Positions 4,381-40,421 of a DNA stretch of 64,000 nt are shown here, in pieces. Positions within the stretch are counted from its first letter, which is position 1. Each line of letters opens with the position of its first letter. The notes beneath the pieces were generated by a model. The model worked only from the letters and a program-made list of their open reading frames with translations. It ran no database searches and was not told the origin of the DNA. The position numbers were made by a program, and so were the translations under genes. Origin of the DNA: Paraburkholderia sp. HP33-1 (GTDB taxonomy: Bacteria; Pseudomonadota; Gammaproteobacteria; Burkholderiales; Burkholderiaceae); contig NZ_JAJEJR010000003.1 of assembly GCF_021390595.1 (NCBI RefSeq), positions 558,001 to 622,000 of the forward strand. Direction: 5' to 3'.

Positions 4381-4452
4381 GTTTATTCGACGCCTGCCGG
4401 CACGCGCGGAAGCATTCACATTCCTGCGGCCGATGGCAGGCATCGAATAAAC
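4381..4452. repeat. long inverted repeat near the right end of IS91-like copy 1
   Basis: The 18-nt arms GTTTATTCGACGCCTGCC (4381-4398) and GGCAGGCATCGAATAAAC (4435-4452) are complementary at 17 of 18 positions, with a 36-nt GC-rich loop. The element ends seven bases later. In IS91 elements the end downstream of the transposase is the origin and holds secondary structure recognised by the transposase, so this is a good candidate for the ori hairpin. It could also act as a transcription terminator. The same structure is at 9617-9688 in copy 2. Confidence 0.7.
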
Positions 4453-4543
4453 CTTAACGCACTCGGCGCTGATTGCGCCTGGGGCGAAACGTACCGCGAT
4501 CTTCGCCCGCGCGGCCGACTACGCGTTTCCCGGCCGACTTCGG

Positions 4544-7032: not shown

Positions 7033-7278
7033 GCTTGTTAGATGGGAGCTCTATATGTCGTTAGGCCGGTATCCGCGACCGGCCATGAGGTGGAACCATT
7101 GTGAAAATTGTCGCCAATCCTGGCCGCTGTGTCGACCGTCCGTTCATGGCCGAAGGACTAAACCGCTCGCGCGGTAGGGGCTACGGTCAGACGCCGGTGG
7201 TCAGGGAGAGGCCGGCATCGCGGTTCCGTATGTTGGCGAATGAGGCAATCCGCCTCGTTCTCCAGCAGGAGCCGAATC

Positions 7279-8154: not shown

Positions 8155-8175
8155 GCCCGCGCGCTGTCACGCCTC

Positions 8176-9345: not shown

Positions 9346-9616
9346 GCGCAACGGTTCCCCGATATCTGAACCGACCGTCGGCTTTGCGGCAACGCGGCCC
9401 ACGAGCGGACGTTTGCGCCTGGCGCTTCGCAAAGCGCCTCCCTCGTCTGCTTCACCATCGTGATTGCCCGACAGCGCCGCTTCGCTACGGCTTCCGCGCC
9501 TGTCCAGCATCCCGCCTGGCCGCACCGCATCCGACATCGCTGAGCATCCTGACCTATCAATCGCCATAGCGGCGAGTTCCGACCACATCGGAGCACTCCG
9601 CGGTTTCCTCCATCGG

Positions 9617-9688
9617 GTTTATTCGACGCCTGCCGGCACGCGCGGAAGCATTCACATTCCTGCGGCCGATGGCAGGCATCGAATAAAC
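9617..9688. repeat. long inverted repeat near the right end of IS91-like copy 2
   Basis: Arms at 9617-9634 and 9671-9688 match the structure at 4381-4452: 18 nt, one mismatch, 36-nt loop, seven bases before the element's end. Confidence 0.7.
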
Positions 9689-9695
9689 CTTAACG

Positions 9696-23344: not shown

Positions 23345-24181
23345 TCAGGCTGTATTGACATGAACCCGTAAATGCAGCCGTCGGAATGCATTCGGCGTCA
23401 TACCTTTACTTTTCTTGAAAAGTCTCCGGAAATATCCGCTGTCCTCGAATCCGCATTCGTAGGCGACCTGCGCGATCGTCAACCGGTCTTCGGCAAGAAC
23501 GATCGCGGCATGCAGCATGCGACGTTCATGGACAGCGTCGGTCAGCGTGTGGCCATAGACGGCTCGATACACGCGTCCGAGATAGTCCGCGTTGCAGCCG
23601 AGGTGCGCCGCAATCGACGAGGCACTGATCGCCTCATGAAAGTGCGTACGGATCCATCGGTCGGCGCTAGCCGCCAACTGCTGGGGCGCCCCGTCGACAG
23701 CAGTAGCGGCGACGCGCGAGCGCTTCAGTTCCCAGAGCATCTGCAGGATCGTAAGGCTGTCCGGCAATGATTGGACGCCATAGATTTGCTGATCGTTCAG
23801 CAGGCGTTGGAACATCCCCGACAGGTGATCTGGCCTTTCGACCCGTGCGTGCTGTGGAATTTCCAACAGCACACGGGAAGCCGATTCGGCCAAAGGCGTT
23901 TCAGGCACGGTGAAATGCACCCAGTAAAACTTGAGTTCGGGGGCAAACGGTGACGTGCCGCCGTGCAACCGGCCAGGCCAGAGCAGCAATGTTTCCCCCG
24001 CATTCACCTCGAATTGCTGACCGTCCTCATGAAGCTTGAGGCACCCCTGCCGGACATAGATCAGTTCGTATGACTGGATTCTCCGCGACGGATGCACACC
24101 CAGGCCGCGCGATACGAAAAGGCCGCCGTTACTGGCTTCGATAGGCGGCAACCAGGCGAGGCGGAGTGCAGAATCTGACAT
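23345..24181 (-). CDS. AraC-family transcriptional regulator
   Basis: A 278-residue regulator. The N-terminal half is a cupin-like sugar-sensing domain with YELIYVRQGCLKLHEDGQQFEVNAGETLLLWPG (about residues 38-70). The C-terminal half has two helix-turn-helix motifs: ISASSIAAHLGCNADYLGRVYRAVYG and LTIAQVAYECGFEDSGYFRRLFKKSKG, the latter being the AraC signature. It is divergent from the binding-protein/permease/GH127 operon at 24422, 240 bp away, and is the obvious candidate activator of that operon in response to arabinose or an arabino-oligosaccharide. Confidence 0.92.
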   Translation of the reverse strand: MSDSALRLAWLPPIEASNGGLFVSRGLGVHPSRRIQSYELIYVRQGCLKLHEDGQQFEVNAGETLLLWPGRLHGGTSPFAPELKFYWVHFTVPETPLAESASRVLLEIPQHARVERPDHLSGMFQRLLNDQQIYGVQSLPDSLTILQMLWELKRSRVAATAVDGAPQQLAASADRWIRTHFHEAISASSIAAHLGCNADYLGRVYRAVYGHTLTDAVHERRMLHAAIVLAEDRLTIAQVAYECGFEDSGYFRRLFKKSKGMTPNAFRRLHLRVHVNTA

Positions 24182-24421
24182 GGGCAGAAAAGTCGGAATT
24201 GTCCTGTTTTACTGCGGATTCTTCATCTTGCGATGGCAAACGGGGCGTGTCAATCTCTGCGGACTGGGTGTTCGCGGAAGCCCGGTAAAAGCTGCTGCAA
24301 CGCACAAAGATCGAAAAAAGCACATTTTCCCGGAGTTTGGCGGCACGTCGCGAACGGCGAAGCCAGCATGAGGGCTCGGAGAACGTCGCAAGACGCGTGT
24401 CGATAACAAGAGGAGACATCC

Positions 24422-25666
24422 ATGAATCGATGCAAGCGGTGGCTTGGGCGGTTGGCATGCGTGGTAGTGTTCGTCGCGACCCACGCACGGGCCGACGATG
24501 GCATTTCCTTCTGGGTGCGGGCAGCGGATGCGGGGTTCGTCACTCCGCTGGTCGCCACATGGAATCAAGGTCATCCGACCAAGGTGAATCTGACCATCAT
24601 CCCGAGCGATGACTTCGTCACCAAGTTCGGCACCGCGTCGGCAGGAGGCGCCGCGCCCGACGTGATCGCCATCGACCTGATTTTCGTGCCCGAATTTGCG
24701 CGGGCGGGCCAGTTGACCGACATTACGGACCAAGCCAAAAAGCTGCCTTTCTACCAGACCCTCAGTCCCTCTCATCTTCGGCTCGGGAGTTACCAGGGCA
24801 AGCAATATGCGTTGCCTTTCAGCGCGGAAAGTTCGATGTTGCTGTACAACAAGAGCCTCTTCAAACGCGCAGGACTAAATCCCGACCAGCCGCCGAAGAC
24901 GTGGGCCGAACTCGAAGCCGACGCCAAAAAGATCACCGCGCTCGGCAACGGAGTCAAGGGTTTCTATTTTTCCGGTGCGTGCGGCGGCTGCAACATCTTT
25001 ACGATGACGCCCTATGTCTGGGCGTCCGGTGGCGACCTGTTCTCAGCAGACGGCAAGACGGCGACGCTCAATAATCCCGCGCTCGAAGGCACGCTTGCCA
25101 TGTATCGCCGTATGTGGGAAGCGGGCGATATTCCAGCGAGCGCGAAAACGGACAGCGGCGCCAACTTCATCAACGCGTTCCTGACTGGCAAGATCGGCAT
25201 GGTCGGTTCCGGTGCATTTTCAATCGGCATCCTGAAGAAAACGCATCCTGAGATCGACTTCGGCCTCGCCTATCTGCCCGGACAGAATGGCGGCTGGGCG
25301 AGCTTCGCCGGTGGTGACTCGATCGCCATCCCGGTGGGCTCGCAGCACAAGCAGGACGCGCTCGAATTCATCAAGTGGAGCCTCAGCGAACAAGTCCAGG
25401 TCGATCAGTTTGCGAAGAACGGCAGTATTCCCGTGCGTGTCGACCTCGCCGACAACGCCTATAGCAAGCTGGACAGCCGCTATCTGCTCGCCGCCACGGC
25501 GATGAGCAAAGGTCGCACGCCGTACAGCGCAAAGTTCAATCAGTTGATCAACGATCCGAACGGCCCCTGGCTCGCCATGATTCAGGAGGCGGTTTTCGGC
25601 AAGGGCGTCGATGCGGCCGTCTCGACTGCGCAGGCACGCTTCACCGAGATCCTGAACGCCCAGTAG
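24422..25666 (+). CDS. ABC sugar transporter substrate-binding protein (first system)
   Basis: A 414-residue periplasmic protein with AGAGGAG upstream of ATG 24422. Residues 1-24 form a signal peptide ending ARADD. The mature protein fits the SBP_bac_1 (maltose-binding-like) family, with features such as DVIAIDLIFVPEFARAGQLTDIT, YALPFSAESSMLLYNKSLF and PPKTWAELEADAKKI. These families capture oligosaccharides and sugar phosphates. It is the first gene of an operon with two permeases and a GH127 enzyme, so an arabinofuranose-containing oligosaccharide is the likely ligand (inference). No lipobox is present. Confidence 0.92.
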   Translation: MNRCKRWLGRLACVVVFVATHARADDGISFWVRAADAGFVTPLVATWNQGHPTKVNLTIIPSDDFVTKFGTASAGGAAPDVIAIDLIFVPEFARAGQLTDITDQAKKLPFYQTLSPSHLRLGSYQGKQYALPFSAESSMLLYNKSLFKRAGLNPDQPPKTWAELEADAKKITALGNGVKGFYFSGACGGCNIFTMTPYVWASGGDLFSADGKTATLNNPALEGTLAMYRRMWEAGDIPASAKTDSGANFINAFLTGKIGMVGSGAFSIGILKKTHPEIDFGLAYLPGQNGGWASFAGGDSIAIPVGSQHKQDALEFIKWSLSEQVQVDQFAKNGSIPVRVDLADNAYSKLDSRYLLAATAMSKGRTPYSAKFNQLINDPNGPWLAMIQEAVFGKGVDAAVSTAQARFTEILNAQ

Positions 25667-25680
25667 GAGGCGCTAAGACA

Positions 25681-26625
25681 ATGGACGTGCTGAACGAAGC
25701 GCCGCCCGGCGGCACCCGTTTCGCGCCGCCGGGCAAGCTCCGGAAGCAGCGTGGGGGAACGGGCCGCCGCGGGCGCGCTGGATACTGGTTCGTGCTGCCT
25801 TGCCTGACCTTTACGGCGGTATTTTTTCTCCTGCCGTTGGCAATGACGATCGGCATGTCGTTCTACCACTGGCCACTGATGGGCGTGCCCTCGTTTGCGG
25901 GAATTCGCAACTATTTCGACCTGCTGCACGACGCGTCGTTCTGGGGCGCGCTGTGGTTTACGACCGAGTACACGCTGCTCGTCACGCCAGCGATCTTCGT
26001 GGTGGCTTTCGCGCTGGCGTTGCTGGTGAATCAGGCAAGCCGCTTTGTCGGCATCTTCCGGACTGCGTTTTTCTTGCCGGTCGTCATCGGCATGACGACG
26101 GCGAGCCTGCTGTGGGTATGGCTGTTCAACGATCAGGTCGGCATCTTCAGTGCGATCCTGATGCAACTGGGTATCGTCAGCGAGCCGGTGCAGTGGCTCG
26201 GCGACACCCATTCGGCCCTTGCCTCGCTGATCGTCATGGTGGTGTGGAAAGCCTGCGGCTTCACGATGGTGATCCTTCTGGTCGGTATGCAGGCCATCCC
26301 GCGGGATCTCTACGAGGCAGCCCGTATCGACGGCGCGCAGTGGTGGGCGCAACAGCGCTACATCACGCTGCCGATGATGCGGCGCACCTTCGCGCTCGCG
26401 CTGATCATGGCGGTTATCGGTTCCTACCTGGCATTCGAGCAGTTCTACGTGATGACCCGAGGTGGGCCGATGAACAGCACGATCACGGTGGTGCACTGGA
26501 TCTATCGGGCTTCGTTCACGTATTTCAAGCTGGGCTACGGCGCGGCGATGTCGGTGGTGCTGCTGATCGTGTTGCTCGCACTGAGCGTGATGCAGATGGT
26601 TCTTCTGCGAGACGACGATGAGTAA
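25681..26625 (+). CDS. ABC sugar transporter permease (MalF-like, first system)
   Basis: A 314-residue inner-membrane protein with AGGAGG 14 bases after the binding-protein stop. About 40 hydrophilic, basic N-terminal residues precede six hydrophobic segments. The EAA loop with DLYEAARIDGAQWWAQQRYITLPMM (about residues 210-235) matches the consensus that contacts the ATPase. It overlaps the next permease gene by eight bases. No ATPase gene is in this operon. Confidence 0.92.
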   Translation: MDVLNEAPPGGTRFAPPGKLRKQRGGTGRRGRAGYWFVLPCLTFTAVFFLLPLAMTIGMSFYHWPLMGVPSFAGIRNYFDLLHDASFWGALWFTTEYTLLVTPAIFVVAFALALLVNQASRFVGIFRTAFFLPVVIGMTTASLLWVWLFNDQVGIFSAILMQLGIVSEPVQWLGDTHSALASLIVMVVWKACGFTMVILLVGMQAIPRDLYEAARIDGAQWWAQQRYITLPMMRRTFALALIMAVIGSYLAFEQFYVMTRGGPMNSTITVVHWIYRASFTYFKLGYGAAMSVVLLIVLLALSVMQMVLLRDDDE

Positions 26626-27562
26626 CAAGCTACGCTCCGCCGAGACTGGTTTCGGTCAGCTGCCGCCGCCAACCCCGATGCAGGCCAGCGTGCCCGCCTT
26701 GCACTATGCCGGCCACGCACGGCAACTGAAGGTGCGGCTCCAGGTGGTTCTCTACTACCTGGTCTGCGGAGTCGTCACGCTGCTCTTTCTATTTCCGATC
26801 GCCTGGTCCGCGCTCACCTCGTTCTATTCGCCTGCCGATGCGAGCGCGTCCCCGCCACGCTGGATTCCGTCCCGTCTGTCGGTCGAGAATTACCAGAACC
26901 TCGCGGGTTACGGCGAAGGGATCTGGCGTTACCTCGGCAACAGTGCGTCCGTGGCGCTGATGACGGTAGCGATGACCCTCGTACTGTCGACGCTCGGCGG
27001 TTACGGATTCTCGAGATTCCGCTTCCGGGGGCGCAATCTGATCTTCGTCGTCATCCTGGCGACGCTGATGATTCCGTTCCAGTCGATCCTCAACCCGCTC
27101 TTCGTGTTGCTGCGCTGGCTGCATCTGCAAGGTACGCTGTTTGGGCTTGCACTCGTCTACACGACGTTCCAGTTGCCGTTTGCCGTGTTCATGATGCGCA
27201 ACTCGTTCGACTCGGTTCCGCTGGAAATCGAGGATGCATCGCTAATCGATGGATGCAGTTCGCTTCAGTCGCTGCGCATGATCATGTTGCCGCTGGTGCT
27301 GCCTGGGCTCGTGACGGCCGGCCTGTTCGCCTTCTTCGGTTCCTGGAATGAACTGCTGGCTGCGCTGATCCTGCTCGGCGACGCCAGACACTACACCCTC
27401 CCGGTCATGCTGTTGAACGCGCAAAGCGGACAGCTCGGGGCGATCGACTGGGGACTGATGCAGGCCGGCATCACGATTTCGATCCTGCCGTGCGCGATTC
27501 TTTTCCTGTTGCTGCAGCGCTTTTACATCAATGGTCTGATTGCTGGTGCGGTCAAGGCATAA
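26618..27562 (+). CDS. ABC sugar transporter permease (MalG-like, first system)
   Basis: A 314-residue inner-membrane protein starting within the end of the preceding permease gene. The first 45 residues are hydrophilic, followed by six hydrophobic segments. The EAA loop reads EIEDASLIDGCSSLQSLRMIMLPLVLPG (about residues 205-232). The expected membrane topology and C-terminal placement fit MalG-type subunits. The GH127 gene begins 16 bases after its stop. Confidence 0.92.
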   Translation: MSNKLRSAETGFGQLPPPTPMQASVPALHYAGHARQLKVRLQVVLYYLVCGVVTLLFLFPIAWSALTSFYSPADASASPPRWIPSRLSVENYQNLAGYGEGIWRYLGNSASVALMTVAMTLVLSTLGGYGFSRFRFRGRNLIFVVILATLMIPFQSILNPLFVLLRWLHLQGTLFGLALVYTTFQLPFAVFMMRNSFDSVPLEIEDASLIDGCSSLQSLRMIMLPLVLPGLVTAGLFAFFGSWNELLAALILLGDARHYTLPVMLLNAQSGQLGAIDWGLMQAGITISILPCAILFLLLQRFYINGLIAGAVKA

Positions 27563-27578
27563 CCCTTTCCCATACATC

Positions 27579-29552
27579 ATGAACGACACAAGAACCTTGC
27601 GACAGCCTGTAGTAGTCGATTCCGCGTCTACCCGCTACGCGCGCGTCAAACCCGTCGCCGTCACCGCAGTCGAACTGCGCGGCGACTTCTGGGGGCGACG
27701 GTTTGCGACGAACATCGAAAAGACCCTGCCGAGCCAGTGGGACCTGCTTGAAAGCACCGGGCGGCTGAACAATTTCCGCCGGGTGTCCGGCGACCATGAC
27801 GGCCCCTTCGAAGGCATATTTTTCAACGACTCCGACTTGTACAAGTGGCTCGAAGCCGCGTCGTGGGCAGTGGCAAGCGGACCTCACGAGCTGCTGGAGA
27901 AGCGCATAGATGAAGGCATTGCCCTGATCGAACGCGCGCAGGACGAAGACGGATATATCGACAGCTATTTCAGCGTGGAACGGAAGGCGGAGCGTTGGAG
28001 CAACCTGCGCGACCTGCACGAGATGTACTGCGCAGGCCATTTGATCCAGGCTGCGGTCGCGCACCACCGGGCGACCGGAGAGAGCCGCTTGTTGAACGTG
28101 GCGACCCGTTTCGCCGATCTCTTGTGCGATCGTTTCGGCCCCGAGGCGGAAGGGAAGATGGAGGCTATCGACGGGCACGAGGAAATCGAAATGGCGCTCA
28201 TCGAACTCGCGCGCGAAACGGGCAATGACCGGTATCTCGCGCTGGCGCGCTTCTTTATCAAGGCGCGCGGTCGCGGCCTGCTCGCGGGCGGCCGATTCGG
28301 CGACGCGTATTTCCAGGACGAGGTGCCATTCGAGCAAATGGAAACACTGGCTGGGCATGCAGTGCGCGCCTTGTACATGTCGTGCGGCGTGACCGATCTC
28401 TACCTGGAGACCGGCGAAGCAGGCCTGCTACCGCGGCTTGAAACGCTGTGGGACCGGCTGGTCGCGCGTCGCATGTACATTACTGGCGGCGTCGGCGCGC
28501 GGCACGACGGCGAATCGCTCGGGGCCGACTTCGAGTTGCCGAACGGCCAGGCTTATACCGAGACTTGCGCGGCGATTGGCAGCATGATGTGGTGCCACCG
28601 GATGTTTGCCGCAACGGGAGACGCACGTTACGCCGACCTGTTCGAGTGGACGTTGTACAACGGCATGCTGCCGGGCTGGTCGCTTGGTGGGCAAGGGTAT
28701 TACTACGTGAATCCGCTGGAGGACGACGGCGGCCATCGCCGGCAACCCTGGTACTACTGTGCGTGCTGCCCGCCGAATGTCGCGCGCACGGTTGCGTCGC
28801 TGCCCGGCTACGTCTATGGGATCGATGCCGACTCGATCTACGTGCAACAGTACATGGAGAGCGATGCGCAGATCGATTTCAACGGGCGCACGGTGGCACT
28901 GCGCCAGCGCACGCGGTATCCGTGGGACGGCGCTATTGAAATCGGCGTTGATGCGCAGGGCGAGTTCGCGCTCAAGTTGCGGGTCCCCGGATGGGTCGAC
29001 GGCGCGGCTGGATTCGTGACGCCTCGCGATAGCGCAGCGGCTACAACGAGAACGCATGCGCCGATCAGGCTGACCGTCAACGGCCAACCGGTCGACGCAA
29101 ACCCGGACGCGAGCGGCCACATTGTGATCAGGCGATTATGGCAACCCGCAGATGTGGTCCGGATGACGTTGCCCATGAGCCTGCGCGCCTGGCAAAGTCA
29201 CCCGAAGGTTCCCGACAACCGCGGCCGGATCGCGTTGAGTCGCGGGCCCCTGCTGTACTGCGTCGAACGCGCCGACATGCCAGGCGTCGATCTCGACGAG
29301 CTGTATGTCGATCCACACCAACTCGAAGAGGAATGGCGAGAAGATCAACTCGATGGCGTCGTAGTGCTCAAGGGCGCTGCGCAGAAACGCGAAATCGATT
29401 CGAGCTGGTCGGGGGCACTTTACCGGCCGCTGAATCACGCGGCGGATGCAACGCAGCGCGACGATGCCACTGTGATCGCTATCCCTTACTTCGCCTGGCA
29501 TAACGGCGAAAGCGGACCCATGAAGGTCTGGCTGAACTATCGAGGGGACTGA
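27579..29552 (+). CDS. GH127 family beta-L-arabinofuranosidase (HypBA1-like)
   Basis: A 657-residue enzyme from ATG 27579, almost exactly the length of Bifidobacterium HypBA1. There is no signal peptide, so it should be cytoplasmic. The family's zinc/catalytic residues are present: Glu in the GADFELPN area (about 320), Cys in YTETCAAIG (about 334) and the Cys pair in CACCPPN (about 401-402), the first of which aligns with the nucleophile Cys of HypBA1. Other matches are SDLYKWLE, SRGPLLYCVE and a PYFAWHNGESGPMKVW tail. GH127 enzymes release L-arabinose from beta-1,2-linked arabinofuranose, as on hydroxyproline-rich plant glycoproteins. It closes the first importer operon. An unknown beta-linked substrate cannot be excluded. 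Confidence 0.9.
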   Translation: MNDTRTLRQPVVVDSASTRYARVKPVAVTAVELRGDFWGRRFATNIEKTLPSQWDLLESTGRLNNFRRVSGDHDGPFEGIFFNDSDLYKWLEAASWAVASGPHELLEKRIDEGIALIERAQDEDGYIDSYFSVERKAERWSNLRDLHEMYCAGHLIQAAVAHHRATGESRLLNVATRFADLLCDRFGPEAEGKMEAIDGHEEIEMALIELARETGNDRYLALARFFIKARGRGLLAGGRFGDAYFQDEVPFEQMETLAGHAVRALYMSCGVTDLYLETGEAGLLPRLETLWDRLVARRMYITGGVGARHDGESLGADFELPNGQAYTETCAAIGSMMWCHRMFAATGDARYADLFEWTLYNGMLPGWSLGGQGYYYVNPLEDDGGHRRQPWYYCACCPPNVARTVASLPGYVYGIDADSIYVQQYMESDAQIDFNGRTVALRQRTRYPWDGAIEIGVDAQGEFALKLRVPGWVDGAAGFVTPRDSAAATTRTHAPIRLTVNGQPVDANPDASGHIVIRRLWQPADVVRMTLPMSLRAWQSHPKVPDNRGRIALSRGPLLYCVERADMPGVDLDELYVDPHQLEEEWREDQLDGVVVLKGAAQKREIDSSWSGALYRPLNHAADATQRDDATVIAIPYFAWHNGESGPMKVWLNYRGD

Positions 29553-30223
29553 ACGGATCCCGCCTCTTGAGCCGCACGAGAAGGGCAATGCGCGAAAGCT
29601 CGGTGCGACGTCCGAGCATTGCCATTTGTTCGACAGCGAAGGGAAGGCGTTTCAGCGAAGGGTCGAAGCAGCACCAACGGCGTGATCACGTCATTCAACC
29701 TGCGAGTCGACCAATGCCTCACAGTACGCCTGCGCTCGCCTGGATCGCTTGCGCCATGGAATCGAATGAGTCTTTTCCCTGGCCGAGGGAATTGATTCCC
29801 TCCTGCCGCCACGCGCCGGCGGCAACGCCCAACCATGCGATGTCGACTGTCCGCTCATGGCCCGCACTGAGTCCAACAGCCGGGCGCAATGATCGCGTCC
29901 AGAGCGCGTATCAGTCAAAAGGCATAACCCGACCGAGATGATGGCACGAAGTGTCGGACGCCCGGATTTTTCGTGAATTGAGTCAGTAGTCTTTCACCTA
30001 TTTGGCACAGCTTTCACTTTCTGTGTAGGCAGACATCTCTGCCTGAATTGCGAGTCTGCCGCGCAATGCAATTCGCATTCCCTAATATCCGAATCTGAAT
30101 ACATCAATACCGAAATAGGGATTGGACGGATAAAACTAATCGGCATTACTATATTTTCATAATATCAAAGTAGACAAATACAGACAGAGACGGCAGTTCC
30201 GGGACATATCCCAAGGAGGCACG
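29553..30223. other. 671-bp intergenic stretch between the two sugar operons
   Basis: No gene is supported. The last 200 bases are clearly AT-richer than the surroundings and should hold the promoter of the second importer operon. A perfect inverted repeat, AGGCAGA-N4-TCTGCCT, lies at 30027-30044. A CTCATGGCCCG motif near 29854 resembles other intergenic repeats of the window. Confidence 0.5.
30027..30044. promoter_or_regulatory. candidate operator palindrome upstream of the second sugar operon
   Basis: AGGCAGA-CATC-TCTGCCT has two perfect 7-bp arms. It is 180 bp upstream of the ATPase gene, in AT-rich non-coding DNA. It could bind the GntR-type or AraC-type regulator encoded in this locus. 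A single short palindrome is weak evidence. Confidence 0.3.
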
Positions 30224-31306
30224 GTGACGGGCATTCAGCTCAACGGCGTGACAAAGCGGTATGGCGAGACGGAAGTGATCACCGGTCTCGACCTCAATAT
30301 CCACGAGGGCGAATTCCTCGTCTTTCTAGGTCCATCCGGTTGCGGTAAGTCGACGCTGCTGCGCATGATCGCCGGGCTGGAGGGCGTCAGCGAAGGGCAG
30401 ATCAGCATCGGTGGCCGGGAGGTCACCCATCTGCCGCCAGCCAGGCGCGATGTCGCGATGGTGTTCCAGCATTACGCGCTCTATCCGCACATGACGGTCT
30501 ACGACAACATGGCGTTCGGATTGCGCAACTCGGGTGTCGTCGCGAGCGAGATCGACCGGCGCATTACCGAAGCCGCCCGCATGCTCGAACTCGATCCACT
30601 GCTCAAGCGCCGCCCCGCGCAACTGTCGGGCGGTCAGCGTCAGCGGGTCGCGATCGGCCGCGCGGTGGTCAAGGAACCGCAAGCGTTTCTGTTCGACGAG
30701 CCGTTGTCGAACCTCGATGCGGCGTTGCGCACCCGCACCCGGGTCGAATTGGCGCGCATCCATCGGCGCCTCACTTCGACGATGGTGTTCGTCACGCACG
30801 ATCAGATCGAAGCAATGACGCTCGCGACGCGCATCGTCGTGATGAACCGCGGTCGCATCGAGCAAATCGGCGCGCCGCTCGATATCTACCGGCGTCCGGC
30901 CACGCGCTTCGTAGCCGGCTTCATCGGCGCACCGGCAATGAACTTCATCGATGTCGAACCGGCGGGCGAAAGCGGCGGCCGGTTGCTCGCGCGCCTGCCG
31001 GTCGACAACGTCGTGATTCCGACCACGATCGCGGCCGGCAGATTGCCGCCGGGCCAATTCACCCTCGGCATCCGCGCTGAGCATGTGGTGATCGACGCCG
31101 GCGGTGCGCTCAACGGTCGCGCTGAATTCATCGAGCGCCTCGGCGATCGTTCGCTGGCGCACGTGAGTCTGGCCAGCAATCAGATGATCGTGATCGAGAT
31201 TCCACGCGAGTACGAATTGCAGCCCGGCGACCCGCTGCGTATGAGTCTCGACGCCGCCCATCTGCACCTGTTCGACGCCAACGGGATCGCCCATCATGGC
31301 GACTGA
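30224..31306 (+). CDS. sugar ABC transporter ATP-binding protein (MalK/UgpC-like)
   Basis: A 360-residue ATPase starting at GTG 30224, with AAGGAGG upstream. Walker A is GPSGCGKST (about residues 37-45), the Q-loop is in VFQHYALYPHMTVYDNM, the signature is LSGGQRQRVAIGRA (about 133-146), Walker B is AFLFDEPLSNLD (about 153-164), and the switch His is in VFVTHDQIEAM. Residues about 240-360 form the C-terminal regulatory OB/TOBE domain of the CUT1 group. It is the only sugar-type ATPase gene in the two neighbouring importer operons, so it may energise both permease pairs. It overlaps the next gene by 11 bases. Confidence 0.95.
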   Translation: MTGIQLNGVTKRYGETEVITGLDLNIHEGEFLVFLGPSGCGKSTLLRMIAGLEGVSEGQISIGGREVTHLPPARRDVAMVFQHYALYPHMTVYDNMAFGLRNSGVVASEIDRRITEAARMLELDPLLKRRPAQLSGGQRQRVAIGRAVVKEPQAFLFDEPLSNLDAALRTRTRVELARIHRRLTSTMVFVTHDQIEAMTLATRIVVMNRGRIEQIGAPLDIYRRPATRFVAGFIGAPAMNFIDVEPAGESGGRLLARLPVDNVVIPTTIAAGRLPPGQFTLGIRAEHVVIDAGGALNGRAEFIERLGDRSLAHVSLASNQMIVIEIPREYELQPGDPLRMSLDAAHLHLFDANGIAHHGD

Positions 31307-32222
31307 GCGCTCGCTGACGGGCGCTCTGCCGAAAGCGCGGCAACGCCGTTTCGACTACCCCCTCGCGTCCTGGTCGAACGGGCTGTTCGTGTTGCCGTTC
31401 GTGACCGTCTACGTGCTGTTGCTGGTCGTGCCGCTCGCGTACGGCTGGTGGCTGAGCTTGCAGAACGTCGATCTGCTCGCCGGCACTACCGAGTTTATCG
31501 GTCTGAGGAACTATGTCGACCTCGCGTCAGATCCGATCTTTCGCGGCGCCGTGCGCAACACGTTCTACTTCGTGTTCATGACCGTGCCGATGTTCGTCGC
31601 GCTCGGTCTTGCGCTCGCGCTCGTGCTCAACCGGCCAGGCCGGTTCTGCGCCGCGCTGCGTGCGATCTTCTTCGGTTCGTCGGTGCTGTCGGTGACGATC
31701 GTCACGCTCGTCTGGAAGCTGGTATTGATGCCGGGCCGTGGACTGCTCGCCGATGTCAGCCACGCGCTGAACATTCCCGAGTACGTGCCGCTCGTTCATG
31801 AAGCCACGGCGCTGCCGATGATCGCAATCGTCACCGTGTGGTGGATCGTCGGTCTGCCGATGATGCTGTTTCTTGCCGCGCTTCAACAGATCCCGCAGGA
31901 GTTGTACGAAGCGGCCGCGCTCGATAACGCAACCCGTTGGCGCACGTTCGTATCGATCACGTTGCCGTCGATCCGGCGCACTGTCGCGCTGGTTGCGGTG
32001 ATCGAAGCGGTGTTCCAGTTCCAGTTGTTCGGTCAGGCGCAACTGCTGACCGACGGTGGCCCGAACAACGCGTCGCGACCACTTGTCCAGTTCATTTACG
32101 AATCCGGCTTTCGCCAATGGTTGTTCGGCTATTCGGCTGCCGCGGCCCAGGTGCTGTTCGCACTGATGCTGCTAGGTGTCGCCGTGCAGGCATGGATCGT
32201 ACGCAGAAAGGATCCCGTATGA
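31296..32222 (+). CDS. ABC sugar transporter permease (MalF-like, second system)
   Basis: A 308-residue inner-membrane protein overlapping the ATPase gene. The basic N-terminal 30 residues are followed by six hydrophobic segments. The EAA loop is ELYEAAALDNATRWRTFVSITLPSI (about residues 204-228). The stop overlaps the next permease start as ATGA. Together with the next gene it forms the membrane channel of the second CUT1 importer. Confidence 0.92.
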   Translation: MATERSLTGALPKARQRRFDYPLASWSNGLFVLPFVTVYVLLLVVPLAYGWWLSLQNVDLLAGTTEFIGLRNYVDLASDPIFRGAVRNTFYFVFMTVPMFVALGLALALVLNRPGRFCAALRAIFFGSSVLSVTIVTLVWKLVLMPGRGLLADVSHALNIPEYVPLVHEATALPMIAIVTVWWIVGLPMMLFLAALQQIPQELYEAAALDNATRWRTFVSITLPSIRRTVALVAVIEAVFQFQLFGQAQLLTDGGPNNASRPLVQFIYESGFRQWLFGYSAAAAQVLFALMLLGVAVQAWIVRRKDPV

Positions 32223-33106
32223 GTACCACCGCACTGGAGTCCGCTCAGCGTCCCCTCGGCCCCGAACGTTCGCGCGGGTCGTTGACCGGCCGTCTCGGCG
32301 AGCGCGTGATGCTCGGCGCCGTGGTGCTGCTCGCGCTCGTCTGGATCGCGCCGCTGGTCTGGGTGTTCGCGTTGTCGTTCAAGCCGAACGCTTTCCTGCA
32401 GCAGCATACTGATGTGCTTTTCTCGGCGCCGTTCACGCTGCAGAACTACATCAGCATCATCGGCACCTCTGCTGTAGGAGGCTGGTTGATCAACAGCGTG
32501 ATCGTCGCGCTGGGCCAGACCTTGCTGACGCTCGTCATCGCGTCGCTGGCGGGCTACGGCTTCGCGCGCACGACGTTCCCGGGCAAGCGCTGGCTGTACG
32601 TGATCTGCCTCGCGGGGCTCGCGGTTCCCGAGCAGGCGCTCGTGATTCCGCTGCATGGCATCTTCGCTTCGCTCGACTGGCACAACACGTACAGCGCACT
32701 GATCATGCCGCGGCTCGCGTCACCGTTCGGCGTGTACCTGATGACGCAGTACTTCAAGGCCGTGCCCGTTGACATCGAGGAAGCCGCGCTGCTCGACAAC
32801 GCGTCGCGCTTCAAGGTGTTCTTGCGCATCGTGTTGCCGCTGTCCATGCCGGCACAGGCGACGCTCGCGATCTTCACCTTCCTCAGCGCCTGGAACGACT
32901 ACCTGTGGCCGCTCGTGTCGGCATCGAAGCCGGAGATGTATACATTGACGATCGGCCTCGCGTCCACGCAAGGCAATTTCGCGCAATCCGAGGGCATCGG
33001 CTATCTGATGGCGCAAGCTGTTTTCGCCGGCCTGCCGATTTTCGTGCTGTATCTGTTTTTCCAGAAGTACATCGTGGCCGCCGTGGCTGGCACCACGGTG
33101 CGATGA
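32219..33106 (+). CDS. ABC sugar transporter permease (MalG-like, second system)
   Basis: A 295-residue inner-membrane protein from ATG 32219, coupled to the preceding stop. The longer upstream frame reads across the previous permease out of frame and is rejected. Six hydrophobic segments follow a 28-residue hydrophilic N-terminus; the EAA loop is DIEEAALLDNASRFKVFLRIVLPLS (about residues 180-205). The following gene, the binding protein, lies 353 bp downstream beyond a hairpin-forming tandem repeat array, an unusual gap inside an importer operon. Confidence 0.92.
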   Translation: MSTTALESAQRPLGPERSRGSLTGRLGERVMLGAVVLLALVWIAPLVWVFALSFKPNAFLQQHTDVLFSAPFTLQNYISIIGTSAVGGWLINSVIVALGQTLLTLVIASLAGYGFARTTFPGKRWLYVICLAGLAVPEQALVIPLHGIFASLDWHNTYSALIMPRLASPFGVYLMTQYFKAVPVDIEEAALLDNASRFKVFLRIVLPLSMPAQATLAIFTFLSAWNDYLWPLVSASKPEMYTLTIGLASTQGNFAQSEGIGYLMAQAVFAGLPIFVLYLFFQKYIVAAVAGTTVR

Positions 33107-33284
33107 ATCGCTGGAATACCGATGTTTCACGGCATCGGCGCCTTGTTGAGAAGAACCGGTCAAGATGTTGACCAATAAGCGGCCGCACGGTGGCGATTGG
33201 AAATACGCGGCTCATTTACTGACCATCGTTGGTGGGATCGAAGCAGGCGCTGATGCGTCAATTGCGGATCGACACGCTGAATCG

Positions 33285-33443
33285 CTAACTCCCATCGGCG
33301 TCATTTGATGGGGTGGGAATAAGCGCTGAAGCACTAACTCCCATCGACATCGTTTGATGGGATGGGAGTAAGTGCTAAAGCACTAACTCCCATCGACATC
33401 GTTTGACGGGATGGGAGTAAGTGCTAAAGCACTAACTCCCATC
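33285..33443 (+). repeat. tandem 49-bp repeat array forming strong RNA hairpins
   Basis: CTAACTCCCATCG recurs at 33285, 33334, 33383 and 33432, an exact 49-bp period: three full units plus a partial fourth. Across each unit junction, GATGGGAGT pairs with ACTCCCATC (9 bp), and inside it AGTGC pairs with GCACT around a TAAA loop. This gives 14 pairs with one A-A mismatch at 33361-33394 and 33410-33443; the first junction is more degenerate. The last hairpin ends five bases before the AGGAG site of the binding-protein gene. The array also allows alternative pairing within a unit. It could stabilise mRNA, attenuate transcription or bind a regulator. Confidence 0.88.
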
Positions 33444-33459
33444 GACACAGGAGACAATC

Positions 33460-34794
33460 ATGAAAAGATCGCTCGTACGCGGTGCGCTTTCGCTTGCCTT
33501 GCTAAGTCTGGCGGTCGGCCTCGCAGCGCCGGCCCAGGCTAAAACCGAAATTACGTTGTCGCGCTTTTTCGGCGCCTGCGACGCTGAATACGGCAATGTG
33601 AATGACGTGAACAAGGCCGCGGGGGAGTGCGGAATCATCACGACACTGGTCAACCAGTTCAATGCGACGAACAAGGAAGACATCGTCGTCAAGCCGCAGA
33701 TCATCGAATGGGCTCCGTACTATACGCAGATCGACGCGCGCATTCTGAGTCACGACGTGCCGACGATTTCGGTCATGCACGAAGCGGTACTCGGAGACTA
33801 TGTGAAGCGCAAGCTCGTCGAACCGCTTGACGACGGCTTCAGATCGGTGGGAATCGATACGAAGGACTTCACGGGCCACGCGCGCCGCGGTGTCACGTTC
33901 GACGACAAAACCTACGCATTGCCGTTCGACACGCATTCGTGGCTTTGGCACATCAACATCAATCTGTTCAGGAAGGCGGGTCTCGTCGACGCGAGCGGCA
34001 AGCCGATCCTGCCCACCACGCCTGACGAACTGCTCAAACAGGCGAAGCAGTTCAAGGACAAGACCGGCCTGCCGTATCTCACCATGCCGATCGCCAACGA
34101 GAGCGCCGCGCAGACCCGCTCGCTGTACACGATGGTCTATCAGCAGAACGGCACGCTCTTTCCGTCAGGCCCGACAAAAATCGATCCGCGCGTCACGCCC
34201 GTCACCAATGCACTGCAATTGCTGGATGGGCTGATGAAGGCGGGCGACATCACTCCGAACCTTGACTACGGCGCATCGAATCAGGCGTTCATGAACGGCA
34301 AGGCAGGCGTGCTGATCTGCGGCACATGGATGATCGAGGACCTGACCAATCTGGCGAAGCAGACGGATTCGCCGCTCGCCAACAATGGCTACGAGGTCGT
34401 CCCGTTCCCAAACCTGTTCCAGAAGAAGGCGGTATGGGCCGATGGCCACTCATGGGTGATGCTCAAGGGCGGTGCCAAGGATGACAAGAGCCGCCATGCC
34501 GCGTTCGTGTTCCTCAAGTTCCTCTACGACCACGACGCCGACTGGGCCCGCACCGGGCATCTGCCGGCCCGGCAGTCGGTGATCGATAGTGCGGCGTTCA
34601 ACGCATTGCCGCACCGCGCGGAGATCAAGGAGATCTCGTCCACCGGCTATGCGCTGCCGAACACGGTGCCGCGTCAGTTCGCGATTCAGGAAATCGTCGG
34701 CAGCGAGGTCAGTAACATGTTGACCTCAGGCAAGCCGATTGCCGCCGTCGAGCAAGACGCACAAGACCGTGTCAACAAGCTGTTGTCGAGGTAG
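33460..34794 (+). CDS. ABC sugar transporter substrate-binding protein (second system)
   Basis: A 444-residue periplasmic protein with AGGAG upstream of ATG 33460. Residues 1-26 are a signal peptide ending AQAK. The mature protein is SBP_bac_1-like, with YALPFDTHSWLWHINI, GVLICGTWMIEDL and a later WADGHSWVMLKGG. Two Cys near the N-terminus of the mature part (ACDAEYG and GECGII) may form a disulfide. It ends the importer part of the operon and precedes GH51. The placement after the permeases, behind the hairpin array, suggests differential expression of this most abundant component. Confidence 0.92.
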   Translation: MKRSLVRGALSLALLSLAVGLAAPAQAKTEITLSRFFGACDAEYGNVNDVNKAAGECGIITTLVNQFNATNKEDIVVKPQIIEWAPYYTQIDARILSHDVPTISVMHEAVLGDYVKRKLVEPLDDGFRSVGIDTKDFTGHARRGVTFDDKTYALPFDTHSWLWHININLFRKAGLVDASGKPILPTTPDELLKQAKQFKDKTGLPYLTMPIANESAAQTRSLYTMVYQQNGTLFPSGPTKIDPRVTPVTNALQLLDGLMKAGDITPNLDYGASNQAFMNGKAGVLICGTWMIEDLTNLAKQTDSPLANNGYEVVPFPNLFQKKAVWADGHSWVMLKGGAKDDKSRHAAFVFLKFLYDHDADWARTGHLPARQSVIDSAAFNALPHRAEIKEISSTGYALPNTVPRQFAIQEIVGSEVSNMLTSGKPIAAVEQDAQDRVNKLLSR

Positions 34795-34907
34795 TGGCCG
34801 CGCGGCTGCCGCAAACTCGACCGAATTCGATCGAAACCAAGCGAACTCAATAGCCGGCGTGCCGCGTCGGGCGGCACGCGCAGGCATCTTCAACAGGACC
34901 TATCACA

Positions 34908-36428
34908 ATGATTGCTTCCCGCCTTGTCGTCGACCGGGATTTCGTCGTCGCGGACCTTGACCGGCGCGTGTTCGGTACGTTCGTCGAACATATGGGCCGT
35001 TGCGTCTATACCGGCATCTATGAGCCGGATCACCCCGATGCGGACGAGTGTGGCTATCGAAAAGACGTGATGGCGCTGACCCGCGAACTCGGACCGACCA
35101 TCGTCCGTTATCCTGGCGGCAACTTTCTGTCAGGCTATAACTGGGAGGACGGCGTCGGCCCGAAAGCGCAGCGGCCGAAGCGGCTTGATCTCGCATGGTA
35201 TTCGGTCGAGACCAATCAGTTCGGCACCAACGAATTCATCGACTGGTGCCGCGAACTCGATATCGAGCCGATGTACGGCGTCAACCTCGGCACGCGCGGA
35301 CCGGACGAAGCGCGCCGGTTCGTCGAGTATTGCAATCATCCTGGCGGCACCACGCTGTCGGACTTGCGTCACGAACACGGCTATGCGAAGCCGCATGACA
35401 TCAAGTTCTGGTGCCTCGGCAACGAGATGGACGGGCCTTGGCAAATCGGCCGCAAGACCGCCGACGAGTACGGTCGCACCGCGCTCGAAACGGCCAAGCT
35501 GATGCGCGCGGTGGACCCCACCATCCAGCTCGCGGCGTGCGGCTCGTCGAACCATGAGATGGCGACCTATGGCGCGTGGGAAGACCGCGTGCTCGAACAC
35601 TGCTTCGATCAGGTCGACTTCATCTCGTTGCATACGTACTTCGAGAACCGTCATGACTCGACCGCGGAATTCTTCGGCAACATCGACGTGATGGATCTGT
35701 TCATCAAGGAGATCGTGGCCGTCGCGGACAGTGTGGCGGCGCGCAAGCATTCGACCAAACGCATCATGCTGTCGTTCGATGAATGGAACGTCTGGTACAA
35801 GGCCCGCACGATCAACGATCTGCGCAAGCCGGGCTGGCCAACCGCGCCGCGCCTGATCGAAGAGATCTACAACGCCGAGGACGCGCTGGTGGTCGGCGGC
35901 GCGCTGATCACGATGATGAACAACGCGGATCGCGTCAAGACGGCTTGCCTCGCGCAACTCGTCAACGTGATTGGACCGATCATGACCGAGCCGGGCGGTG
36001 CCGCCTGGCGGCAGACGATCTTTTATCCGTTCTCGCAGGCATCGAAGTTCGGGCATGGTCGCGTGCTCAAGCCGGTGATCGAATCGCCGGCCTACGCGGC
36101 CGAAACCTTCCCTGAGATCGCCTACCTGTGCGCCGCCGTGGTCGACGACCGCGCGAGCGGCACCACGACGATCTTCGCGTTGAACCGGCACCTGACCGAC
36201 GAGATGGACCTCAGCATCGAATTGCGCGGCCTCGGCGTGGAGCGCACGCTCGATCACGCGCTCGAACTTCACCACCCGAACATGAAGGCGGTGAATACGC
36301 GCGAAGCGCCGCTGACGGTCGTTCCCGCGACCAACGAGAATGTCTCGGTCGATGGCGAAAAACTGACGGCGCGTCTGAAACCCGGTTCGTGGAACGTGAT
36401 CGTCACGACCGCGGCAAAGCGCGGCTAG
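34908..36428 (+). CDS. GH51 alpha-L-arabinofuranosidase
   Basis: A 506-residue enzyme without a signal peptide, thus cytoplasmic. The catalytic acid/base Glu is in WCLGNEMDGPWQ (about residue 172), and the nucleophile Glu is in SFDEWNVWY (about 292). The substrate-binding segment VRYPGGNFLSGYNWEDGVGP and the C-terminal beta domain are typical of GH51. Length fits (about 500). It removes alpha-1,2/1,3/1,5-linked L-arabinofuranose from oligosaccharides. Located downstream of the second importer and 34 bases upstream of a GntR gene, it is a natural partner of the GH127 enzyme for mixed-linkage arabino-oligosaccharides. Confidence 0.95.
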   Translation: MIASRLVVDRDFVVADLDRRVFGTFVEHMGRCVYTGIYEPDHPDADECGYRKDVMALTRELGPTIVRYPGGNFLSGYNWEDGVGPKAQRPKRLDLAWYSVETNQFGTNEFIDWCRELDIEPMYGVNLGTRGPDEARRFVEYCNHPGGTTLSDLRHEHGYAKPHDIKFWCLGNEMDGPWQIGRKTADEYGRTALETAKLMRAVDPTIQLAACGSSNHEMATYGAWEDRVLEHCFDQVDFISLHTYFENRHDSTAEFFGNIDVMDLFIKEIVAVADSVAARKHSTKRIMLSFDEWNVWYKARTINDLRKPGWPTAPRLIEEIYNAEDALVVGGALITMMNNADRVKTACLAQLVNVIGPIMTEPGGAAWRQTIFYPFSQASKFGHGRVLKPVIESPAYAAETFPEIAYLCAAVVDDRASGTTTIFALNRHLTDEMDLSIELRGLGVERTLDHALELHHPNMKAVNTREAPLTVVPATNENVSVDGEKLTARLKPGSWNVIVTTAAKRG

Positions 36429-36462
36429 ATGGCTCGCACGGGACGTCTACGAAGGAGGGGTG

Positions 36463-37206
36463 ATGTTCGAGCGTGAGCCCGTCGTAGGGACGATGACCGC
36501 GCAGGTCGCGCGGATCGTCGGCATGAGGATCGTCTCGGGCGAATTCGGCCCAGGCGATCTGCTCCCTGTCGAAAGCGAGTTGTGCACCGAGTACCGCGTG
36601 AGTCGCACGACGGTGCGCGAGGCGATCAAACAGCTTACCGGCAAGCGCCTGATCGAAGTGACGCCGAAGATCGGCACGCGCGTGTTGCCGTTCTCGGACT
36701 GGAATCTGCTTGACCGTGACGTGCTCGCGTGGCGGCTCAATGCGCAGTTCGATTCGAAGATCGTCGAGGACATCTTCGAGATGCGCCTCTGCTTCGAGCC
36801 GCGCGCGAGCTTTCTGGCGGCGCGGCACGGCAGTGACGACGACTTTCAGTTAATCGAGCGCCGCTATCGCGAGCTGGCCAGCGCGTATGCATCGCCGTCG
36901 GTGCAGTCGGATGTGCGCGCGGTGGGCGAGGCGGTGCTGGAGTTTCATATGGCGATCATCGCAATGTCGCAGAACGGCATGTTCATCACGATCGGCAGTG
37001 CGATCAAGGCGGCGTTGCGGGTGTCGTCGGAGATGCTGCTGCGGCAGGCGGCGCGGCCCAGCGAAGATATCGAATTGCATGACGCCGTGCGTCGCCGGAT
37101 CGTTTCGCGCGAAGCACAGGCCGCGTCCGCCGCGATGACGCGGCTGCTCGAAGCATCGCGCGAAAGGATGCTGCGCTACACGATCAGACCGAAGAACACG
37201 GTGTGA
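36463..37206 (+). CDS. GntR-family (FadR subgroup) transcriptional regulator
   Basis: About 247 residues from ATG 36463, preceded closely by AAGGAGG; a GTG at 36460 is equally placed. The N-terminal winged helix (residues about 10-75) has GEFGPGDLLPVESELCTEYRVSRTTVREAIKQL. The C-terminal helical FCD effector domain (about 95-230) carries AVGEAVLEFHMAIIAMSQN and LHDAVRRRIVSR, with potential metal-binding His. It follows GH51 by 34 bases in the same operon, so it probably represses the operon and is relieved by a catabolic intermediate. Confidence 0.92.
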   Translation: MFEREPVVGTMTAQVARIVGMRIVSGEFGPGDLLPVESELCTEYRVSRTTVREAIKQLTGKRLIEVTPKIGTRVLPFSDWNLLDRDVLAWRLNAQFDSKIVEDIFEMRLCFEPRASFLAARHGSDDDFQLIERRYRELASAYASPSVQSDVRAVGEAVLEFHMAIIAMSQNGMFITIGSAIKAALRVSSEMLLRQAARPSEDIELHDAVRRRIVSREAQAASAAMTRLLEASRERMLRYTIRPKNTV

Positions 37207-37602: not shown

Positions 37603-38958
37603 TCAGTGCGTGTGGGGCCGGATGATGACGTCGTTCGGGTGTGTGAGGCCCGCCGGTCCGTCGTCGATGGACTCCAGTGTTTCGAGGCTCGTGTCAGAAC
37701 GATTGAGCATCGCACGGGCTTGATTCATGTCGAGCGCACCCTCCCAACGCGCAACCACAATGGTCGCCACCCCGTTGCCGATAAGATTGGTAACCGCACG
37801 CGCCTCGTTGAGAAATCGGTCGACTCCCAGCAGCAGCACCAGCCCGGACACAGGAATCTTGTGCATCGTGGCGAGCGTAGCCGCCAGTGCAACGAATCCC
37901 GCTCCGGCCACACCAGCCGAGCCTTTCGAGGTCAGCAGCAACACGCCAAGCAACAGCAACTGATCCCAGATCGTCAGATTAATATTCATCGCCTGTGCGA
38001 CAAAGATCGACGCCATCGTCAGGTAGATTGCCGTGCCATCAGCATTAAACGTATAGCCCGTTGGCAACACCATCCCGACAACAGGGCGCGAGCAACCCAT
38101 CTTTTCCATCTTGATGAGCATCTGGGGGAGAACCGCTTCGGTAGAGGCCGTACCGAGGGTGATGAAAATCTCGTCCTTGATGTAGCGAAGATACTTCCAC
38201 AACGACAACCCGCTCAGACTCATGACGAGACCGAGCACGACAACCACGAAGAAGATTGAGGTCAGGTAAAGACACAGCATCAGCTGACCAAACGATGCCA
38301 GCGTGCCGATTCCGTACTTCGCGATGGTGAACGCCATGCCGCCAAACGCACCGACAGGCGCGACATACATCACGATTCGTACGACCCCGAACATGCCCTG
38401 AAGGAACATATCGAGCATGTCAACTAAAGGCGCGGTGCGGGGGCCGAGCTTCGCGAGAGCAATCGCGAGCAGCAGCGAGAAGAATATGATCGGCAAGATC
38501 TCTCCATTCGCAAACGCTCCAACAATACTGTTGGGAACGATGCTCATGAGGAATTCAAGCATGCCGTGTTGTTGTGCTGCGTGGGTGTAGGTGGAGATCG
38601 CCGAACTGTCGATATGAGCCGGGTCGATGTTCATACCGCTGCCTGGCTTGATGACGTTGACGATGATAAGACCGGCAGCGAGCGCAATCGTCGAGGCGAT
38701 TTCGAAGTAGACGACCGCCTTCACACCAACCCGGCCGGCCTCATGAAGGTCACTCATGCGGGCGATGCCGACTACGACCGACGCAAAAATGATCGGCGCA
38801 AGCAGCATCCGGATCAGTTTGATGAACAGATCGCCGAGTGGCTTAAGTTGAGAACCGATGTCAGGGTAGAAATGGCCGACGAGCACACCAGCGATAATTC
38901 CAATCAAAACCTGTACGTAAAGCCTGGAAAGAGATTTTCCGATTCTTGAAACCAGCAT
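37603..38958 (-). CDS. dctA: C4-dicarboxylate transporter, DctA-like
   Basis: A 451-residue inner-membrane symporter of the DAACS family (usual length 420-450), with AGGAGAC upstream of ATG 38958. Typical segments are FIKLIRMLLAPIIFASVVVGI, SIVPNSIVGAFANGEILPII, the Ser/Thr-rich TLGTASTEAVLPQMLIKME re-entrant loop and PTGYTFNADGTAIYLTMA with the substrate/cation-binding residues. DctA proteins import succinate, fumarate, malate and related acids with protons or sodium. Downstream of TarD on the same strand, it may bring in tartrate. Confidence 0.92.
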   Translation of the reverse strand: MLVSRIGKSLSRLYVQVLIGIIAGVLVGHFYPDIGSQLKPLGDLFIKLIRMLLAPIIFASVVVGIARMSDLHEAGRVGVKAVVYFEIASTIALAAGLIIVNVIKPGSGMNIDPAHIDSSAISTYTHAAQQHGMLEFLMSIVPNSIVGAFANGEILPIIFFSLLLAIALAKLGPRTAPLVDMLDMFLQGMFGVVRIVMYVAPVGAFGGMAFTIAKYGIGTLASFGQLMLCLYLTSIFFVVVVLGLVMSLSGLSLWKYLRYIKDEIFITLGTASTEAVLPQMLIKMEKMGCSRPVVGMVLPTGYTFNADGTAIYLTMASIFVAQAMNINLTIWDQLLLLGVLLLTSKGSAGVAGAGFVALAATLATMHKIPVSGLVLLLGVDRFLNEARAVTNLIGNGVATIVVARWEGALDMNQARAMLNRSDTSLETLESIDDGPAGLTHPNDVIIRPHTH

Positions 38959-39084
38959 GACCGTCTCCTATCTATGCCTGGCATCTTTTGATGAAGTCAG
39001 GTCGAGCACCGCAGCGACATTTACCGCTGCGGCGAGCACGGCCCTCATTTCGCCTGCGTTCCATTGATCTGTTTTTATGAACGC

Positions 39085-39107
39085 CGCGCCGACGCTTTGT
39101 CGGCGCG
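39085..39107. terminator. hairpin between TarD and DctA genes
   Basis: CGCGCCGAC-GCTTT-GTCGGCGCG forms a 9-bp GC-rich stem with a 5-base loop in the 165-bp gap. In the direction of these minus-strand genes no U-tract follows, so it may be a partial terminator or an mRNA-stabilising or processing structure rather than a classical terminator. Confidence 0.4.
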
Positions 39108-39123
39108 TTTGCCGCTTGACCGC

Positions 39124-40290: not shown

Positions 40291-40421
40291 GACGGTGTCT
40301 CCTGAGTTTTGGCACGTATTGCATGTGTTGGGGGCTGCAATGGAACGTAGCTTATCCGCGAAATCTGCCGCTATACTTCGCCTAAATTCATTTCAATTTT
40401 TACCCTGGGTGAATAGCGAAG

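Follow-up and report, generated by a model that had tools for sequence, protein, structure and literature searches.

A Probable β-Arabinoside Scavenging Module beside a Probable α-Arabinoside Module in a Paraburkholderia Genome

Introduction

Within a 64,000-nucleotide stretch of the Paraburkholderia sp. HP33-1 genome (contig NZ_JAJEJR010000003.1, positions 558,001 to 622,000; hereafter the window), positions 23345-37206 probably hold two self-contained import-and-cleave modules: a scavenger of β-linked arabinosides (module A) beside a module for α-linked arabinosides (module B). Module A encodes, in order, a solute-binding protein (SBP1), two CUT1 permeases, and a glycoside hydrolase of family 127 (GH127), with a divergent gene for an AraC-family regulator. 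Module B encodes an ATPase, two permeases, a second binding protein (SBP2), a GH51 enzyme, and a GntR regulator. Every gene named in an earlier, sequence-only reading of this DNA was found where that reading had placed it. The same reading described two importer operons: both are present, but there is a single ATPase gene, in module B, and the GH127 operon has none.

In the proposed mechanism, module A would import a short, free β-linked L-arabinofuranoside, most likely β-1,2-arabinobiose (β-Ara2), the kind of sugar released from plant hydroxyproline-rich glycoproteins; GH127 would then cleave it in the cytoplasm, with a zinc-bound cysteine as nucleophile. Module B would import an α-arabinofuranosyl oligosaccharide, from which GH51 would take off L-arabinose. 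Module A, with no ATPase gene, probably draws on the ATPase of module B or on another of MalK type. The strain itself is probably a scavenger of sugar that other organisms or plant turnover set free.

The Module A Importer

The Hyp cluster of Bifidobacterium longum is described as an SBP gene (BLLJ_0208), two permease genes (BLLJ_0209 and BLLJ_0210), and genes for GH127 (BLLJ_0211), GH121 (BLLJ_0212), and GH43 (BLLJ_0213) (PMC7263609). Module A matches the first four genes, in the same order. SBP1 (24422-25666, plus strand) has as its top PDB match by sequence entry 6LCE (219 bits; the runner-up scores 111 bits), and its structure model (14 input sequences; predicted local distance difference test score, pLDDT, 86.6) has the same top match by fold (E 7e-36; the next protein, 4e-29). 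Entry 6LCE is the B. longum β-arabinobiose-binding protein, BABP (PMC12345172, PMC8106489), so SBP1 and BABP belong to one family by both measures. Two CUT1 permease genes (25681-26625 and 26618-27562, plus strand; PF00528) and the GH127 gene (27579-29552, plus strand) follow, completing a BABP-type importer. By eye, the amino termini of SBP1 and SBP2 each show a signal-peptide-like stretch. Gene order, sequence, and fold, taken with the survey below, make a ligand of the β-Ara2 type likely.

This arrangement recurs widely. A survey of species genomes used only SBP sequences in its query alignment (five from Burkholderiales, plus BABP), such that GH127 was no criterion; of 137 confirmed loci, the best 80 were evaluated. 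The genes for SBP, two transmembrane permeases, and GH127 lie in order on one strand at 71 of the 80 loci, or 71 of the 75 that could be evaluated; five loci end too early to judge, three have GH127 elsewhere in the locus, and one has none. The loci come from Burkholderiales, Ktedonobacteria, and many Actinobacteria. To our knowledge, no member of these actinobacterial and ktedonobacterial modules has been characterized except BABP. They share with module A the identical four-gene order and an SBP of the same subfamily, with C187, C190, and R339 (SBP1 numbering). They differ in their surroundings: five of the six actinobacterial loci listed have an upstream gene whose product has a LacI-like amino terminus (by eye), and the flanks of many loci hold a gene for a GH121-like enzyme, a GH43 enzyme, or a second, distant PF07944 enzyme.

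A GH121-like gene lies within the flanks of 29 of the 80 loci; among loci numbered at least L060 and longer than 20.5 kb, the count is 25 of 55 (one of the 55, L081, is from Burkholderiales). Two of these genes, scanned with the HypBA2 model NF041578, scored 835 and 545 bits, both under the full-length cut-off of 3200, and one matched PDB entry 6m5a with 341 bits. Of the evidence for a ligand of the β-arabinobiose type, this actinobacterial association is the strongest. A GH43 probe matched 19 of the 80 loci, and 12 have a second, distant PF07944 enzyme (above 200 bits), which we infer to be GH146-like. The proposal of the sequence-only reading that the GH127 operon serves β-arabinofuranoside uptake and cytoplasmic hydrolysis fares well: SBP1 matches BABP best, and homologous modules often lie near GH121-like genes.

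The GH121-like β-arabinobiosidase genes are those at L099:5197-8523 and at 28 other loci among L048-L127. Their hosts are Streptomyces, Micromonospora, Actinoplanes, Herbidospora, Microbacterium, and others. Most GH121 members known at the time of PMC7263609 were from bifidobacteria and Xanthomonas, according to that paper; the actinobacterial genes widen the range given there.

The GH127 Enzyme

The module A enzyme scores 353 bits against PF07944 (cut-off 24.9) and is the only PF07944 protein encoded in its genome. Its start is taken as the ATG at 27579, from which residues are counted here; the listed open reading frame (ORF) begins at a TTG at 27540. Alignment to HypBA1, the B. longum reference enzyme, identifies H147, Y150, H200, R263, E312 (acid/base), E328, C330, C396 (nucleophile), and C397. 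We take E338 to be the zinc Glu of HypBA1. The PF07944 catalytic domain, the Cys3-Glu zinc site, and the acid/base Glu place the enzyme in clan GH-P, and the catalytic and zinc residues noted in the sequence-only reading are indeed in place.

The catalytic, zinc, and substrate residues of HypBA1 are named in PMC10850190 and PMC8106489. All are identical in 77 of 77 module GH127s (taken from 92 rows, leaving out four references, seven distant enzymes, and four duplicates). They are found as well in BT1003, described as an aceric-acid hydrolase (PMC10850190); therefore, these residues cannot decide specificity, and the earlier use of the zinc residues as a sign of HypBA1-type specificity does not hold. 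In line with that reading, neither GH127 nor GH51 shows, by eye, a signal-peptide-like stretch at its amino terminus. From its sequence, the enzyme is probably a cytoplasmic β-L-arabinofuranosidase. The B. longum GH127 likewise is reported to be intracellular (PMC7263609, PMC8106489); here, that location is a prediction.

The Probable α-Arabinoside Module

Module B lies entirely on the plus strand. Its ATPase (30224-31306) is of the MalK/UgpC type (NCBIfam UgpC subfamily, 477 bits; cut-off 432) and is followed by two CUT1 permeases (31296-32222 and 32216-33106; PF00528), SBP2 (33460-34794; SBP_bac_8), GH51 (34908-36428), and an FCD-type GntR regulator (36460-37206; PF00392 and PF07729). GH51 is of the ArfA type: it passes the NCBIfam NF051901 cut-off (821 bits; cut-off 625), and both catalytic Glu residues seen in the sequence-only reading are present, E173 in GNEMDG and E292 in FDEWNVW. 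It is the only GH51 in its genome by PF06964, and probably a cytoplasmic α-L-arabinofuranosidase. Its best PDB match is 1pz3 (622 bits), and that of the window GH127 is 4qjy, Ara127N of Geobacillus stearothermophilus. Presumably 1pz3 comes from the same species, with both enzymes encoded in an arabinan cluster.

The module B ATPase is possibly shared with module A. One Paraburkholderia genome (G002) has a MalK/UgpC-type ATPase gene immediately after GH127, which fits a module A that needs an ATPase from outside its core.

Among the 20 genus genomes with a strong GH51 match (see below), four (G083, G093, G137, and G138) have one in-frame stop codon each in GH51; this may reflect decay of the gene in some members of the genus, or errors of assembly. 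Both loci scanned for it, those of G036 and L131, have an L-arabinonate-dehydratase-like gene near module B (834 and 839 bits; model cut-off 882), and ORFs of the same cluster occur in two further loci. HP33-1 has a 95% relative of this gene located elsewhere in its genome; no L-arabinose catabolism genes were recognized beside it in the 8 of 14 ORFs scanned there. Between permease 2 and SBP2 in the window, a 49-bp unit is repeated in tandem about 3.5 times (33276-33447), and its ACTCCCATC/GATGGGAGT arms are self-complementary; most of the corresponding spacer does not align in the relatives.

Weighing the Ligand

Several observations weigh against the assignment of these ligands. First, most of the other relatives compared are closer to BABP than SBP1 is (34-35% identity; rank 83 of 90). 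Second, C187, C190, and R339 are present in 83 of 83 module SBPs (counted from 90 rows, leaving out BABP, two non-module SBPs, and four duplicate genomes), and BABP has S, A, and N at these positions, so its characterized ligand may not carry over. Third, the window GH127 lies outside the group of HypBA1 and the Geobacillus enzyme, and it scores 494 bits against 4qjy, 459 against BT1003, and only 335 against HypBA1. Fourth, the Burkholderiales and Ktedonobacteria loci of the survey yielded no GH121-like gene. For module B, the best PDB match of SBP2 reaches only 39.7 bits and its structure model only pLDDT 34; no structure backs a ligand.

The tree positions come from a quick method without bootstrap, applied to chosen subsets of loci (48 and 47 rows), with branches supported by the Shimodaira-Hasegawa-like approximate likelihood ratio test (SH-aLRT). 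HypBA1 groups with Geobacillus 4qjy and the GH127 of one Paraburkholderia genome, G036 (99 SH-aLRT), and the window enzyme sits in a separate Burkholderiales clade (100), so it does not group with HypBA1 as an orthologue would. BT1003 joins the HypBA1/4qjy/G036 group (98), HypBA1 and BT1003 both being long branches. Six alignment columns divide the module GH127s from that group. The binding protein gives a parallel picture. C187 and C190 form a Cys-x-x-Cys pair, which with the invariant Arg 339 is absent from BABP. The 14-row SBP alignment has 63 invariant columns, of which BABP keeps 57, differing at C187, C190, T194, R339, L342, and N345; in the tree, BABP is placed within the actinobacterial module SBP clade, beside one Propionibacteriaceae and one Bifidobacteriaceae module, on a long branch. 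It seems that in B. longum the binding protein has changed, and the enzyme lineage as well.

These same features are what would be expected if module A took some other β-linked sugar, such as a pectin fragment (with aceric acid, for instance) or an arabinoside attached to hydroxyproline, with a GH127 specificity to match: the higher score against the aceric-acid hydrolase BT1003 than against HypBA1, the six dividing columns, and the universal Cys pair and R339. We nonetheless consider this unlikely. GH121-like genes lie beside many loci whose SBPs share the Cys pair; BT1003 groups with HypBA1 and 4qjy and not with the window enzyme, long branches notwithstanding; and the catalytic and substrate residues of HypBA1 are all kept, though they are kept family-wide. 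Identity as an aceric acid hydrolase was rejected, since the enzyme scores 473 bits against the NCBIfam model for that activity, under the curated cut-off of 950. A related and rather doubtful idea is that the Burkholderiales and Ktedonobacteria modules with their Cys pair and R339 take β-arabinosides still carrying hydroxyproline or a short peptide; B. longum, whose GH127 lineage and binding protein differ, would then be a derived exception and not the model.

Separate Modules, Paired

The sequence-only reading had treated the whole region as one locus; the comparisons show two separate, separately inherited units, adjacent only in this strain among the genomes seen. Searches for GH127 matched 9 of 144 genus genomes; one match (G071, E 7e-4) is too weak and another (G036) is of another lineage, leaving seven genomes with module A. 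In a family-wide sample, 8 of 398 match. GH51 matched 21 of the 144, of which one (G123) is weak. Module A, from AraC to GH127, is intact in all seven of its genomes, the window included. Module B, from ATPase to GntR, is intact in all 17 copies examined (16 plus the window; G083, G137, and G138 were left out). Two module A genomes (G066 and G098) have no GH51 match. In four of the five with both modules (G002, G042, G060, and G077), the modules lie on different contigs. Divergence from the window also is discordant: module A is 68-77% and module B 94-97% identical in G077, and the corresponding values in G060 are 89-96% and 79-87%.

DNA homology marks the boundary. For module A it stops by 29555 in genus relatives (with one exception, L015, in which it continues to 29685 at 79.5%); for module B it starts between 29989 and 30215; and the junction at 29556-29988 has almost no homology to relatives of either module. 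Neither module shares its binding protein or its conserved upstream blocks with the other. The AraC gene (23345-24181, minus strand; Pfam HTH_18, 72.5 bits; AraC_binding, 37.6 bits) is oriented divergently from SBP1, both here and in six orthologous genus loci; among named loci, P. nodosa and P. guartelaensis have the closest SBP1 (95-96%). The intergenic region (24182-24421), aligned with its orthologues (10 regions), contains the conserved blocks AAAGTCGGAAT, TTCTTCATCTTG, and TGTCAA, probable regulator or promoter sites. The region upstream of module B (29989-30223, plus strand), in an alignment of 14 orthologous regions, contains a conserved TTTTCATAATAYCAA block, a probable promoter or operator.

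All of this tells against a single functional locus that imports extensin-type arabino-oligosaccharides with both linkages and uses one enzyme for each. Further, none of the 80 surveyed loci has a GH51 above 100 bits, and B. longum is reported to remove the α cap outside the cell (PMC7263609). The sequence-only reading's import of capped extensin oligosaccharides likewise lacks support, since B. longum HypAA is described as extracellular and the SBP as taking β-Ara2 only (PMC7263609, PMC8106489). That both enzymes cut a single imported, capped extensin oligosaccharide is possible, but the evidence does not support it.

Still, the two enzymes occur together more than their separate inheritance would indicate. 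GH51 is present in five of the seven module A genomes, versus 20 of 144 overall (Fisher p 0.0006, shared ancestry not corrected for). In addition, G036 carries a different cassette (L019:6408-10931), encoding an AraC regulator, a GPH symporter, and GH127, directly upstream of module B and in the same orientation. Its AraC and GH127 are 49% and 39% identical to those of the window, its GH127 is of the 4qjy group, and it has a symporter instead of an ATP-binding cassette importer. Either the modules came to lie side by side on two occasions, or one importer and enzyme replaced another at the same site; by either route, this points to selection for joint α- and β-arabinosidase uptake. Both observations favor the one-locus explanation, which we regard as improbable overall. 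They also support some functional pairing of GH127 and the GH51 module, and the G036 cassette suggests that the pairing is under selection.

A link with nodulation was considered and rejected. The HP33-1 genome itself gives no NodA match, and NodA is found in three of the seven module A genomes, versus 26 of 144 overall (p 0.11; the total drops a fragment in G095, a 55-aa frame, from 27). Among genomes with module B, eight of 20 have it (p 0.011, with no correction for relatedness or for the two tests made).

Releasing Enzymes

Module A differs from the Hyp cluster in the enzymes around it. The HP33-1 genome has no GH121 match, the module has no GH43 beside it, GH127 is of another lineage than HypBA1, the binding protein has the Cys pair and R339, both absent from BABP, and the module has an AraC regulator. 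The GH121 model NF041578 matches none of the 144 genus genomes at E 0.001, that of HP33-1 included (in the search control, one of 14 control genomes matched, under the cut-off), so the extracellular β-arabinobiosidase of the Hyp system was not found. GH146 and GH127 are placed in the same Pfam family, PF07944 (PMC7263609), and the genome has no second enzyme of this family. No GH43 α-arabinofuranosidase lies in the cluster; the sole GH43 of the genome is about 490 kb away and has a xylosidase-type carboxyl-terminal domain. With no GH121 match and no second PF07944 enzyme, the strain seems unable to free β-Ara2 from glycoprotein. Probably, then, it cannot release this sugar itself, unless through another enzyme family.

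A proteobacterial enzyme set for hydroxyproline-linked arabinosides has been described in Xanthomonas euvesicatoria: XeHypAA, XeHypBA2, and XeHypBA1 (PMC6085000), the last now classed as GH146 (PMC10850190). This is a three-enzyme degradation set, and the word "transporter" is absent from the main text of PMC6085000. The sequence-only reading saw in the HP33-1 region a proteobacterial counterpart to the Hyp system; one had been published earlier, in Xanthomonas.

Flanking Elements

Two 1610-bp copies of insertion sequence IS1182, 100% identical and inverted, lie outside the modules (21329-22938, plus strand; 41503-43112, minus strand) and flank 18.6 kb that holds both. This geometry suggests a composite transposon, with modules A and B as its cargo and adjacent only through joint movement. 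That origin is very unlikely. Each copy, bounded by 18-bp terminal repeats, sits within a separate 5-bp target duplication (GAACG and GTCAG), with none shared across the outer ends, which indicates that the copies inserted separately. Moreover, the genome contains eight near-full-length IS1182 copies, including these two.

Elsewhere in the window, positions 37603-41381 encode a DctA transporter, a mandelate-racemase/enolase-family protein, and a LysR-like regulator (by eye); perhaps these take up a sugar acid or hydroxy acid and dehydrate it. Positions 1896-4459 and 7132-9695 form a direct duplication of 2564 bp (99.8% identity); its first copy encodes a phage-integrase-family recombinase and an IS91-type transposase.

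Perspective

A search of titles and abstracts, with most subscription journals outside its reach, found no such system in Paraburkholderia. The results extend a glycan-uptake system of gut bifidobacteria to soil Burkholderiales, to Ktedonobacteria, and to many actinobacteria. They also suggest that the reference pair, BABP and HypBA1, is atypical for the module, so that specificity would be better judged on a typical member.

Finally, the distribution of GH121 suggests a division of labor, in which actinobacteria with GH121 release β-arabinobiose and Paraburkholderia, without it, scavenges. Should the modules instead accept arabinosides that still carry hydroxyproline or a peptide, soil bacteria lacking GH121 would eat arabinosylated plant peptides, extensin fragments among them, directly.

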